From Saprospiraceae bacterium (GTDB lineage Bacteria > Bacteroidota > Bacteroidia > Chitinophagales > Saprospiraceae), in NCBI GenBank assembly GCA_029212405.1, contig JARGNR010000002.1, positions 1 through 64,000 on the forward strand: a stretch of DNA of 64,000 nt, given 5' to 3'. Below, in pieces: positions 8,296-41,276 of the stretch. Position 1 is the stretch's first letter. Every line of letters starts with the position of its first letter. The position numbers were made by a program, and so were the translations under genes. The notes under the pieces were generated by a model. It made no database searches. It saw only the letters and a program-made list of their open reading frames with translations, and was not told the origin of the DNA.

Positions 8296-8799
8296 TTATT
8301 TGGTATGGACTTTAAGTTGGAATCGTTCTATTTGTCTTCGGTGCCGAAGAATATGAACAATGGCATGCTCCATTAATTGTTCTACATCGTATCGTTGTCC
8401 CCAGCGAGTGAGTATTTTACTTTCAGGGTTGTATTGTTCTAATTCCAGATTTGGAAAATCATCAAATACAGATAATGTAAATTGAAACATTTCGTTTATC
8501 GCGTCGATGTACTGCTGAGCATCATCATATACTCTATTTTGTTTAAATGGCATTTGTTTTCCTTGATGATTATATATTGAGACAGCATAGCCATACCCAG
8601 CTCTTACTATATGCGTTAATATAGATTGGATAGATCGACAATCTTCATCTTTGGTATGCGGATCTATAATTAGAGTAAGGAGTTTTTGATCTATAGGTTG
8701 TATTATAGAATTAAGATCGCTGATTGCTCTTTCGTATTCGTCTAATAAGGCACCGATGGCACCATTATCTCGAAAATTGTCAAGGGAATAAATATTCAT
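8296..8799 (-). CDS. DinB-family protein
   Basis: This 167-residue protein resembles the DinB/YfiT four-helix-bundle superfamily, whose members often bind a metal through three His. Candidate ligands are the His of SILTHIV in the second helix and the two or three His of MEHAIVHILRHRRQIERF in the last helix; that last motif is very typical. Members act as thiol-dependent transferases or have unknown roles, so the activity cannot be named. Its start codon overlaps the stop of the O-antigen ligase family gene by four bases (ATGA), so the two are cotranscribed, though the pairing may be accidental. Confidence 0.75.
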   Translation of the reverse strand: MNIYSLDNFRDNGAIGALLDEYERAISDLNSIIQPIDQKLLTLIIDPHTKDEDCRSIQSILTHIVRAGYGYAVSIYNHQGKQMPFKQNRVYDDAQQYIDAINEMFQFTLSVFDDFPNLELEQYNPESKILTRWGQRYDVEQLMEHAIVHILRHRRQIERFQLKVHTK

Positions 8800-37384: not shown

Positions 37385-39304
37385 ATGATCAATATTACAC
37401 TGCCGGATGGTTCTGTAAGGCAATATGAAAAAGGAACATCGGCGATGGATGTAGCTATGTCAATAAGTGAAGGGTTAGCACGTAACGTACTATCCGCTTC
37501 AGTAAATGGAGAAGTATGGGACGCGAGCAGGCCTATCGAGAGCGATGCATCAGTAACGTTACATACATGGAGAGATGATGATGGTAAAGCTACGTTTTGG
37601 CATTCGTCAGCCCATTTGATGGCAGAAGCTTTGGAGGCATTGTATCCTGGAATCAAATTAGGGATAGGACCTGCTATTGATAAAGGTTTTTATTACGATG
37701 TAGATGCTGGAGACTATACGTTTACCCCAGCGGACCTCCCCAAAATAGAAGCCAAAATGAAAGAATTGGCTAAAACCAAGTCGGCCTATGTAAGAAAAGA
37801 CGTGTCAAAGGCTGATGCCATACAATATTTTACCGAAAAGGGCGATGAGTACAAGTTGGAGTTGATCGACGGTCTTGAGGATGGATCAATTACTTTTTAT
37901 ACACAAGGAAACTTTACAGACTTGTGTAGAGGACCGCATATTCCACACACAGGAAGCATTAAGGCTGTAAAGTGTATGAGTATAGCTGGGGCGTATTGGA
38001 GAGGAGACGAAAAACGTCAGCAAATGACAAGGATTTATGGTGTATCTTTTCCAAAACAAAAAGAACTTACCGAATATCTTGAATTATTAGAGGAGGCTAA
38101 AAAGAGAGACCATAGAAAATTAGGTCAAGAATTAGAGCTGTTCATGTTTTCAGAAAAAGTTGGAGCAGGACTACCAATTTGGTTGCCAAAAGGAACACAA
38201 TTAAGAGAAAGGCTCCAAGGCTTTTTGCGAGAAGAACAAGAAAAAAGGGGGTATCAAATGGTCATTACCCCGCATATCGGTCACAAGAACCTGTATGAGA
38301 CATCTGGACACTATGCAAAATACGGAGAAGATAGCTTTCAACCCATTCAGACACCCAGAGAAGGAGAGGAGTTTTTATTAAAACCCATGAACTGTCCACA
38401 TCATTGTGAGATATTTGCCAATAGACCTCATTCGTACAAAGAATTGCCAATTCGGTTGGCAGAGTTTGGTACTGTGTATAGATACGAGCAAAGCGGTGAA
38501 TTACATGGTTTGAGTAGAGTTAGAGGTTTTACACAGGATGATGCTCATATTTTCTGTACTCAGGATCAGGTAAAAGGTGAATTTTTAAATGTTCTGGACT
38601 TGACCAAGACGGTTTTGAATAAAATGGGATTCGAGAATTATACGGCTCAAATATCTTTAAGAGACCCAGAAAAGCCAGAAAAGTACATTGGAACCAATGA
38701 AAACTGGGACGCAGCAGAAGCAGCCATTATAGAAGCTACAAATGAGGTAGACCTTGAAACAGTTACCGCCTTAGGTGAAGCAGCCTTCTACGGACCTAAG
38801 CTAGATTTTATGATTAAGGATGCACTGGGTCGCTCATGGCAATTGGGAACAATTCAAGTGGATTACAACCTACCGGATCGGTTCGAATTAGAATATATTG
38901 GGTCTGATAATTCTGCTCATCGTCCGGTGATGATACACAGGGCACCTTTTGGCTCTATGGAACGATTTATTTCAATACTTATAGAACATACGGGAGGAAA
39001 ATTTCCATTGTGGTTGGCTCCGGATCAATTTGCAATACTTCCAATAGCTGATCGATTGAATGACCACTGTAAGCAGATCGAGATCGAGTTGGCGAAACAT
39101 GATATAAGAGGGTTTATTGACAGTAGGACAGAAAAAATTGGAAAGAAAATAAGGGACACAGAATTAAAGAAAGTACCGTTCATGTTGATCGTAGGGGACA
39201 ATGAAAAAGAGTCCAATACGGTGAGTGTGAGAAGGCAAGGTCAAGGGGTTGTAGGAACAATGACGATAGAAGAATTTGTTTCACACTTTAAAACGCTACT
39301 ATAG
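37385..39304 (+). CDS. thrS: Threonyl-tRNA synthetase
   Basis: ThrRS charges tRNA-Thr and edits misacylated Ser-tRNA. The 639-residue protein has the TGS domain ([23 protein letters not shown]) and the editing domain with HSSAH (H73-type pair) and [12 protein letters not shown]. The class II core follows with [10 protein letters not shown] (zinc Cys and His), [27 protein letters not shown], and [21 protein letters not shown]. The anticodon-binding domain is C-terminal. Length is usual. ATG at 37385 is supported by an AAGGAG Shine-Dalgarno, rare in this genome, which suggests strong translation. A possible weak stem, TTCTCT with AGAGAA (39334-39350), lies 30 bases after the stop. Confidence 0.95.
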
Positions 39305-39512
39305 AGGCAGTTATGTATCTATAGTGGCCAATTTTCTCTAGGCCAGAGAATGTTGGTATATTATTTGAATAATAAGGAATTGTGGTCGTTTTTGCTTTTG
39401 TAATAATCAAGGAAGATTAAACGTAATACCTTGACCACTAAATTGGTAATAAATTAATATTTTTCATATATAATGGAAACTATTATGAGAAATAAGCGTT
39501 ATAAAGAAAAAG

Positions 39513-39543
39513 TTTGGATAAATCACAAAGTATTGTAACTTTG
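39513..39543 (+). promoter_or_regulatory. Full Bacteroidota promoter
   Basis: TTTG (39513-39516), then exactly 19 bases, then TAACTTTG (39536-39543): this is a perfect fit to TTTG-N19-TAnnTTTG. Transcription should start near 39549. The next protein start is at 39772 or 39990, and a terminator intervenes at 39709-39740, so the promoter most likely serves a noncoding RNA. Confidence 0.75.
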
Positions 39544-39548
39544 CGTTA

Positions 39549-39740
39549 TCCCAAGGCAGTTGATCACATCCGATTTATCATGTAGTCTCCTACCTTGCAT
39601 TCAGTTTTTTGTTTATTGAATTGACTTATAACTCCATTGGAGTTCAAAATATAGTAAGGTTATCTTACAAAAGAAGTAGTTTTCTTATTTTGAGACCTTA
39701 GTCGAAAGAGCCTGAGTTTGACAGCAAACTTGGGCTTTTC
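39549..39740 (+). ncRNA. Candidate structured noncoding RNA of about 190 nt
   Basis: A perfect promoter lies immediately upstream and an intrinsic terminator closes the unit. No convincing protein frame is inside. Predicted hairpins by eye are: CAAGG/CCTTG (39552-39556 with 39593-39597) enclosing GATCACAT/ATGTAGTC (39562-39569 with 39580-39587, one mismatch and one G-U); TCAGTT/AATTGA; AACTCC/GGAGTT (39630-39635 with 39639-39644); GTAAG/CTTAC (39654-39658 with 39664-39668). Size and isolation resemble 6S-type or other housekeeping sRNAs, but I cannot assign a family. It is not the SRP, tmRNA or RNase P RNA by length or motif. Confidence 0.55.
39709..39740 (+). terminator. Terminator of the noncoding RNA candidate
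   Basis: AGCCTGAGTTTG (39709-39720) pairs with CAAACTTGGGCT (39725-39736) over twelve pairs, two of them G-U, with a four-base loop. Four T follow the stem. Confidence 0.8.
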
Positions 39741-39771
39741 GCATTTTACACCAATTCTTATTTAATAGACT

Positions 39772-39888
39772 ATGTCTAAACATCTATACTTTTATTTAAT
39801 TGTAGGCTTCTCGTCCCTTATTCTATACGGGATTTATTTTTTACTAGACAGAAGTGGGTCGAACAAAGAAAATGGAGAAGATCACTAA
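39772..39888 (+). CDS. Small single-span membrane protein, 38 residues
   Basis: An ATG-to-TAA frame encodes a short basic N-terminus (MSKH), one hydrophobic segment of about 21 residues (from LYFYLIVGFSS to the YFLL stretch) and a hydrophilic tail (DRSGSNKENGEDH). This is a typical single-pass small membrane protein. It sits after the RNA terminator and 102 bases before DUF2851. Tiny frames can arise by chance, but the clean hydrophobic profile supports it. The role is unknown. Confidence 0.4.
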   Translation: MSKHLYFYLIVGFSSLILYGIYFLLDRSGSNKENGEDH

Positions 39889-39989
39889 TTTCAACAGTCC
39901 TCTTTTAAAATAAAGTAATTTTTATAAACTTTTTGTATTCGTTTTCCTGTTTCCTTAATTGCCAGTTATATCAGTTACACGTTACGTTT

Positions 39990-41276
39990 ATGTTAGTCCC
40001 CGTTATACGAGAGGATCTTCTGTATTATGTCTGGAAGACCAAGTCTTTTGATTTATCAAACCTCAAAACGACTGATAATCGAAAAATAGAAATTGTTCAA
40101 TTTGGTTCTCAAAACTATGATTCTGGCCCAGATTTTTCGAACGGAAAGGTAAAGATAGAAGATACCTTGTGGATAGGCAATGTGGAAATGCATGTATACA
40201 GCAGTGATTGGGAAAAGCACTGTCATGATTTGGACAAGGCTTACGATACTGTAATTTTGCATGTTGTGTATGAGCACGATAAAGAAGTATATACCACATC
40301 AGAACAATACATTCCGTGTATTGAATTAAAGAATAGAATCAATCAAAATGTAATTCTAAATTATAGTCAATTAATAGCAAATAATAACTGGATACCCTGT
40401 GAGCGTCTGCTTTTACATGTTCCAAAGCACATTATCTCTTTTTGGCTTCAAAGGTTAATTGCTGAACGATTAGAAGTAAAAACAAAGCGATTAAAATCTA
40501 TCTTGGAAAGTACCAATACGAATTGGGAAGAAACCGCGTATATTTTTTTATTTAGATACATGGGGGCCAAGGTAAATATGGAACCATTTGAATCGCTAGC
40601 AAGAGCATTACCATATCGATTGATTCAAAGTAACCGCAATGATATTTTTAAGTTAGAAGCACTGCTATTTGGACAGTCTGGAATGTTAGAAGCCAATTAT
40701 GACGATGAGTATTTTTTATTATTAAAGAAAGAGTACCAATTTCTTAGAAAAAAATATAACCTCGTACCGATATCGGTCATATCGTGGAAGTTTTCTAAAA
40801 TGAGGCCTGTTGGTTTTCCGACGATCCGAATTGCACAATTGGCACAAATACTATTTCAGACAGATCGTATATTTTCCCAGATGACGTATAATGATGACAT
40901 CAATGCAATAAGAGAGGTTTTTAACGTAAAGCCATCACATTACTGGGAAAGTCACTATCGTTTTGGAAAGGAGTCCCAAGCCGTTGAAAAAAAGGTGGGT
41001 AAAGGCTTCATCGATCAATTAATCATCAATGTAGTATGTCCTGTAATTTTTGCATATGGAAAGTACTTATCAGATGAATCATATTGTCAAAAAGCAATTG
41101 ACCTTTTGGAAACGATTAAATCTGAACAAAACGCCATTGTAAGAGGGTACAAAAAATTAGGAATAAAGTGTAAGACAGCTTCAGAATCTCAAGCACTCGT
41201 TCGATTAAAGAATGTCTATTGTGACCAAAAAAGGTGTGCTACTTGTGCAATTGGTAATGCAATAATAAAATTGTGA
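39990..41276 (+). CDS. DUF2851-family protein
   Basis: This product of about 428 residues matches DUF2851, a Bacteroidota family of unknown function. The N-terminal third has the strongly conserved IREDLLYYVWKTKSF, QNYDSGPDFSNGKVKI and IGNVEMHVYSSDWEKHCHDLDKAYDTVILHVVYEHD segments. A Cys-rich end (YCDQKRCATCAIGNAIIK, C-x4-C-x2-C) could hold a metal or Fe-S centre. ATG at 39990 fits the usual start better than the upstream TTG at 39933. The His/Asp content of the first domain (EMHVYSSDW, H-x2-D) suggests a nuclease-like metal site, but this is inference. Confidence 0.75.
   Translation: MLVPVIREDLLYYVWKTKSFDLSNLKTTDNRKIEIVQFGSQNYDSGPDFSNGKVKIEDTLWIGNVEMHVYSSDWEKHCHDLDKAYDTVILHVVYEHDKEVYTTSEQYIPCIELKNRINQNVILNYSQLIANNNWIPCERLLLHVPKHIISFWLQRLIAERLEVKTKRLKSILESTNTNWEETAYIFLFRYMGAKVNMEPFESLARALPYRLIQSNRNDIFKLEALLFGQSGMLEANYDDEYFLLLKKEYQFLRKKYNLVPISVISWKFSKMRPVGFPTIRIAQLAQILFQTDRIFSQMTYNDDINAIREVFNVKPSHYWESHYRFGKESQAVEKKVGKGFIDQLIINVVCPVIFAYGKYLSDESYCQKAIDLLETIKSEQNAIVRGYKKLGIKCKTASESQALVRLKNVYCDQKRCATCAIGNAIIKL

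Follow-up and report, generated by a model that had tools for sequence, protein, structure and literature searches.

A candidate small RNA family of Saprospiraceae with a conserved 28-nt core adjoining its terminator

Within a 64,000-nt stretch of a Saprospiraceae contig (hereafter, the window), we found a free-standing noncoding RNA gene that represents a new RNA family of an already known kind, and this family appears to be confined to Saprospiraceae among the genomes searched. Its features are listed in Table 1. We favor, with some confidence, the reading that the RNA is a stress-linked, Hfq-independent, trans-acting antisense sRNA whose conserved core serves as a long seed.

Table 1 Features of the small RNA locus in the window.
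Feature	Position	Strand	Remarks
sigA-type promoter TTTG-N19-TAACTTTG (-33 / -7)	39513..39543	+	exact, read from sequence
ECF-like promoter or activator box GAAACT-N15-CGTT (candidate)	39476..39500	+	starts 60 bp before the -7 box
5'-end motif ATCCCAAGGCAGT	39548..39560	+	at the inferred start site (~39549)
Inferred small RNA, about 190 nt	39549..39742	+	promoter-to-terminator span
Family core GTAGTTTTCTTATTTTGAGACCTTAGTC	39676..39703	+	AAAGAA directly before (39670-39675)
Intrinsic terminator	39706..39748	+	stem 39706-39720 / 39725-39739, U-rich tail
Threonyl-tRNA synthetase gene thrS, upstream	37385..39304	+	Pfam PF00587, PF03129, PF02824, PF07973
DUF2851 gene, downstream	39933..41276	+	Pfam PF11013, 485.5 bits; true start may be further in

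The promoter was read directly from the sequence as TTTG (39513-39516), a 19-base spacer and TAACTTTG (39536-39543), exactly where the original prediction had placed it. The 12-pair terminator claimed there was likewise confirmed as a hairpin at 39706-39739; sequence and fold give a stem of at least 12 pairs with a 4-nt loop, followed by TTTTCGCATTTT. The intervening stretch of about 190 nt had been described as lacking a coding frame, and the only plus-strand ORF of at least 30 aa found in it was 30 aa long with a TTG start. Neither the promoter nor the terminator was reported by a scanner for consensus elements, which searches for TTGACA/TATAAT boxes and for a tail rich in T. The predicted fold of 39546-39742, a row of local hairpins, had an energy of -49.5 kcal/mol compared with -36.8 (sd 3.7) for 200 shuffles (z -3.42). 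The covariation analysis proposed with the prediction was run for the terminator helix alone, where it was positive; the other hairpins are single-sequence predictions. The boundaries of the gene, its noncoding nature and its independence of the neighboring genes were established computationally, and sequence, promoter enrichment and a covarying terminator support a noncoding RNA gene that has a promoter and a terminator of its own. The same two elements suggest that the small RNA is transcribed. The gap from the RNA to the DUF2851 gene contains an ORF of 38 codons (39772-39888, +) that includes a hydrophobic stretch and had no Pfam match.

The original prediction recognized no family signature, and our Rfam searches agreed: no family was matched in the window at the gathering score, nor in 39280-39960 at E values up to 10. 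The best Rfam score, for STnc50, was at chance level (17.9 bits; gathering score, 55). Among openly licensed PMC papers, we found no Saprospiraceae sRNA and no account of this RNA.

The RNA had also been called an orphan, which it is not. A covariance model detected 74 copies with at least 47 bits in 73 of 199 Saprospiraceae genomes, spread over 44 of 112 genera (counted from the listing), and blastn with 39640-39745 matched 72 of the 199. The window's own genome has one model copy (39665-39744, 90.6 bits). The model was built from 44 copies, mostly loci found by exact scan, and its E-values are rough. We counted only matches of at least 47 bits; the 103 of 199 genomes matched at E 0.01 include weak matches of a level also met in other families, and the next match below the cut-off (G101, 41 bits) lacks the core. 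The distribution within Saprospiraceae is patchy. A search of 149 genomes from the order gave no score above 35.1 bits outside the family. A phylum-wide scan with 21 nt and up to two mismatches matched six of 395 genomes, four of them Saprospiraceae; it gave no convincing match outside the family, and a reversed control also gave a few matches. Two of its matches (L163 and L164), without flanks and terminator, were dropped as chance.

The exact 24-mer of the core was found in 115 stretches among 84,980 species genomes. Carriers named to family or genus were Saprospiraceae, Saprospirales, Lewinellaceae, Portibacter, Aureispira and Ca. Parvibacillus; the remainder were named only Bacteroidetes, Bacteroidia, Chitinophagia or similar, with two exceptions (L136 and L062), which we kept apart. 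Portibacter marinus and P. lacus (L118, L150) are carriers that have been cultured. The core was unmatched in GenBank phages and PLSDB plasmids. In IMG/VR, no exact 21-mer of it was found and two further searches were empty; an 18-mer match (L158) and three matches to a 20-base pattern (L264-L266) do not extend over the remainder of the core and were rejected as chance.

Conservation is concentrated at the 3' end. The core, GUAGUUUUCUUAUUUUGAGACCUUAGUC, is letter-perfect over its 28 nt in 57 of the 74 model-detected copies. This count is less biased than the alignment of exact-scan loci, in which the invariant 24-mer is in part built in, as the exact scan supplied most of the loci. Divergent copies share approximately UAGUUUUCUU-N-UUUUGAGACC; within this part, site 39687 varies most. 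AAAGA usually stands directly before the core, and the terminator stem starts within a few bases of it. The 5' part of the RNA varies, and conservation throughout the family covers the last ~70 nt rather than the whole 190 nt; positions -30 to -9 appear almost random when genera are compared. Compared with shuffles, segment -45 to -7 had on average a slight gain in stability (mean z -0.98, n=109), consistent with a 5' hairpin whose sequence is not fixed. Some homologs have their -7 box 34-41 nt ahead of the core, and their RNAs would be only about 90-100 nt long. For the terminator helix, 44 sequences contained 52 two-sided changes compared with 11.8 in shuffles, and 88.0% of cells were paired compared with at most 57.2% when the arms were slid. 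Seven pairs showed a two-sided change, a number reached by 16 of 500 shuffles and exceeded (eight) with the partner slid by -1, so that by these two measures the true register does not stand out. Genus g67 contains a second, diverged copy with its own terminator (TAGTTTTCTTTATTTGAGACC in G170; L206 1599-1659, contig 10), also seen in G704 contig 20 and more weakly in G070 contig 27; it is possibly a paralogous sRNA.

Promoter elements recurred upstream of the homologs, which we examined as a non-redundant set (109 kept of 179 entries after removal of near-duplicates). TAnnTTTG preceded 67 of the 109 (26.0 in shuffles), and the looser two-part pattern TTG-N18-22-TAnnTTTG preceded 28 (mean 2.8 in shuffles). 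The TTTG / TAnnTTTG consensus is as given in the available parts of PMC7366714 and PMC9723704. The 5'-end motif, in the form TCCYRR-N1-4-CAGT, was present in 9/109 homologs compared with 0.12 in shuffles. GAAACT-N13-16-CGTT was found upstream of 28/109 homologs (shuffles: mean 0.10, maximum 2), and never in the reversed form or on the other strand. Among the 44 GAAACT boxes listed, 21 begin 54-62 bp before a -7 box and four do so at 28 bp. Because it often lies at 54-62 bp before the sigA box, the GAAACT box may be an activator site; it would be either that or an ECF-type promoter. A sigma-54-like pattern, TGGCA-N5-7-TGC, occurred upstream of 11/109 homologs (0.5 in shuffles), with at least three matches overlapping TATATTTGC; such sites are carried by some other lineages, and none was seen in the window. 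In the excerpts of PMC9723704, ECF-like or sigma-54-like promoters of F. psychrophilum drive the sRNA Rfp11 and chaperone or envelope-stress genes. From these promoter elements, we infer that the small RNA is stress-linked.

The two exceptional carriers differ from the family in their surroundings. L136 is labelled Paceibacterota, and its 9.6-kb contig (L263; G710 contig 9) carries phage-type endolysin, ParB-like, primosomal and SSB genes; we judged it to be a mis-binned phage contig. Its core lies on the minus strand at 8524-8545, two bases behind a tRNA-Ser gene (8547-8634), as an exact 25-nt copy, after which come a small hairpin and a terminator. An arm of this terminator, GGUCUC, is complementary to GAGACC of the core. 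L062 (3702-3810) comes from a genome that reads with code 25, presumably of the Gracilibacteria/Absconditabacteria type, and also has an exact 25-nt copy (GTAG...CCTTA). There, the core stands directly behind a sigma-70-like promoter, TTGACT-N16-TATACT, with a terminator about 55 nt further on, and was absent from all other genomes among the 147 searched around L062; it adjoins a DUF2207 gene. By a rough estimate, about 0.02 such exact matches would be expected by chance in the collection. Because both copies are exact, lack Saprospiraceae flanks and each have a terminator, the core would be the working part. A tentative and rather unlikely extension is that the 24-25-nt core is a portable module, used by Saprospiraceae in a stress-linked sRNA, and that the exact copies in the phage and the code-25 bacterium imitate the RNA inside or against Saprospiraceae cells.

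We weighed whether the conserved segment might belong to a neighboring gene as a cis-acting leader, attenuator or 3'-UTR element, as its adjoining terminator and the same-strand gene downstream in this window would allow. Among homologs (119 loci), 80 of 110 nearest downstream genes were on the opposite strand and 30 on the same strand, and no family of downstream genes was common to the 110 loci. Because the neighbors differ between loci and the next gene is usually convergent, the RNA is not a leader; it also has promoter boxes of its own and a median gap of 323 nt to the upstream gene. We therefore consider this reading very unlikely. The commonest downstream gene, an ABC-transporter ATPase (35 of 119 loci, e.g., L020, L040 and L072), is arranged tail-to-tail and often adjoins a permease matching TIGR00056 (MlaE family; 173 bits, under the cut-off of 212). 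This arrangement points to an ancient common locus with a link to lipid transport. The least likely reading of all that we weighed is a short conserved peptide (SFLILRP-stop) in place of an RNA. Its reading frame stays open across the core, and the stop changes from TAG to TAA in one clade; against this, an in-frame ATG was found in only 4/109 non-redundant homologs, with a median of five open codons upstream, third codon positions are no more variable than the others, and the most variable site, 39687, alters a residue.

An antisense sRNA is the reading we prefer. Transcription would start from the sigA-type promoter, and perhaps also from the ECF-like promoter about 60 bp upstream, and would give an RNA with a fast-evolving 5' part, the 28-nt core and an end at the adjoining terminator. 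The U-rich core would act as a long seed on several mRNAs, probably by pairing with A-rich sequences where translation starts, as we propose by analogy with GibS, and pairing would change mRNA translation or stability without Hfq during a stress response. The stress signal, the base-pairing and the targets are all things that we infer. Hfq (PF17209) was found in none of 40 genomes of relatives, with the control detected in 5 of 14 genomes, and the RNA was on this ground not classed as Hfq-dependent. Target searches gave little. Antisense sites for a 20-mer with up to three mismatches numbered 318, compared with 331 for the reversed control (120 genomes), and seven near-complementary sites that we inspected had no gene in common. 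Before ATG, AGGTCTCAAAA occurred 126 times in 58 carrier genomes compared with 79 for the reversed pattern, 13 of the 126 being the core itself among the matches listed; in 92 non-carrier genomes, the counts were 141 and 133. The carrier excess is weak and, by a rough two-proportion estimate, not significant. Of 579 nearby start regions, 58 fell below -14 kcal/mol, no better than the 35-118 obtained with eight shuffled cores. Most antisense seeds need fewer than 28 invariant bases, which counts against the antisense reading. At L195 1076-1095 (G068 contig 25), downstream of an ORF that resembles dnaK and ahead of a hairpin, a site could pair with 20 nt of the core, one of the pairs being G-U; it is possibly an RNA sponge or a chance match.

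The unusual length of the invariant segment and the failure to find a complementary partner would also suit a protein-binding RNA, in which AAAGA and the 28-nt core bind a conserved RNA-binding protein or RNA polymerase that is titrated or guided, by CsrB- or 6S-like logic. So would the predicted structure, which also counts against the antisense reading: the core comes out as unpaired only in part, with a mean of 0.36 for the window transcript and values of 0.14-0.81 at its individual positions across 110 homologs. CsrB-type sponges repeat their motif, but here it occurs once per RNA; moreover, there is no candidate protein, and the code-25 bacterium has the same core despite a very different proteome. 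Protein sequestration stays a live rival, a minority reading to be taken seriously. A 6S-type RNA binding RNA polymerase, as the original prediction had thought suitable for the size, is extremely unlikely. The length of about 190 nt fits, and a search of 30 genomes with RF01685 (6S-Flavo) found no 6S gene, a result that tells nothing because the 14 control genomes were silent too. Neither RF00013 nor RF01685 matched in the window, however, the fold of local hairpins lacks a closed rod and central bubble, conservation is confined to the 28-nt 3' segment, and shorter forms are likely in other genera.

With the conserved core of this new RNA family in hand, its molecular target can now be sought, and the core and covariance model permit annotation in new genomes. 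A core invariant across dozens of genera, apparent stress-type promoters and the lack of Hfq offer an entry into Hfq-independent riboregulation in Bacteroidota, and RNA mimicry can be tested directly on the phage-like and code-25 copies.

Among known systems, GibS of B. thetaiotaomicron has a conserved single-stranded seed that acts at translation starts, according to the available text of PMC7366714. As described there, GibS is 145 nt long, is conserved within Bacteroides and has its seed in the 5' part, whereas the core of the Saprospiraceae RNA adjoins the terminator and its family is that of Saprospiraceae; the two are set apart by description. Rfp18 and Rfp11 of Flavobacterium psychrophilum are likewise conserved Bacteroidota sRNAs in the portions of PMC9723704 at hand, and Rfp11 is alike in having an ECF-type promoter with a CGT box. 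Rfp18, compared by its description in that source, is strongly structured, pairs via its third stem-loop and belongs to another family. The 6S-Flavo RNA (RF01685; PMC2864571, seen in extract) is also an independently transcribed noncoding RNA of Bacteroidota, but the Saprospiraceae RNA gives no match to its model and has no 6S-type rod. The phage-encoded anti-sRNAs of enterohaemorrhagic E. coli (PMC4104026) are a precedent for phages that intervene in the sRNA network of a host through RNA; by the title of that paper, they oppose host sRNAs, whereas the phage-like copy found here would mimic the host core because it has the same sense.
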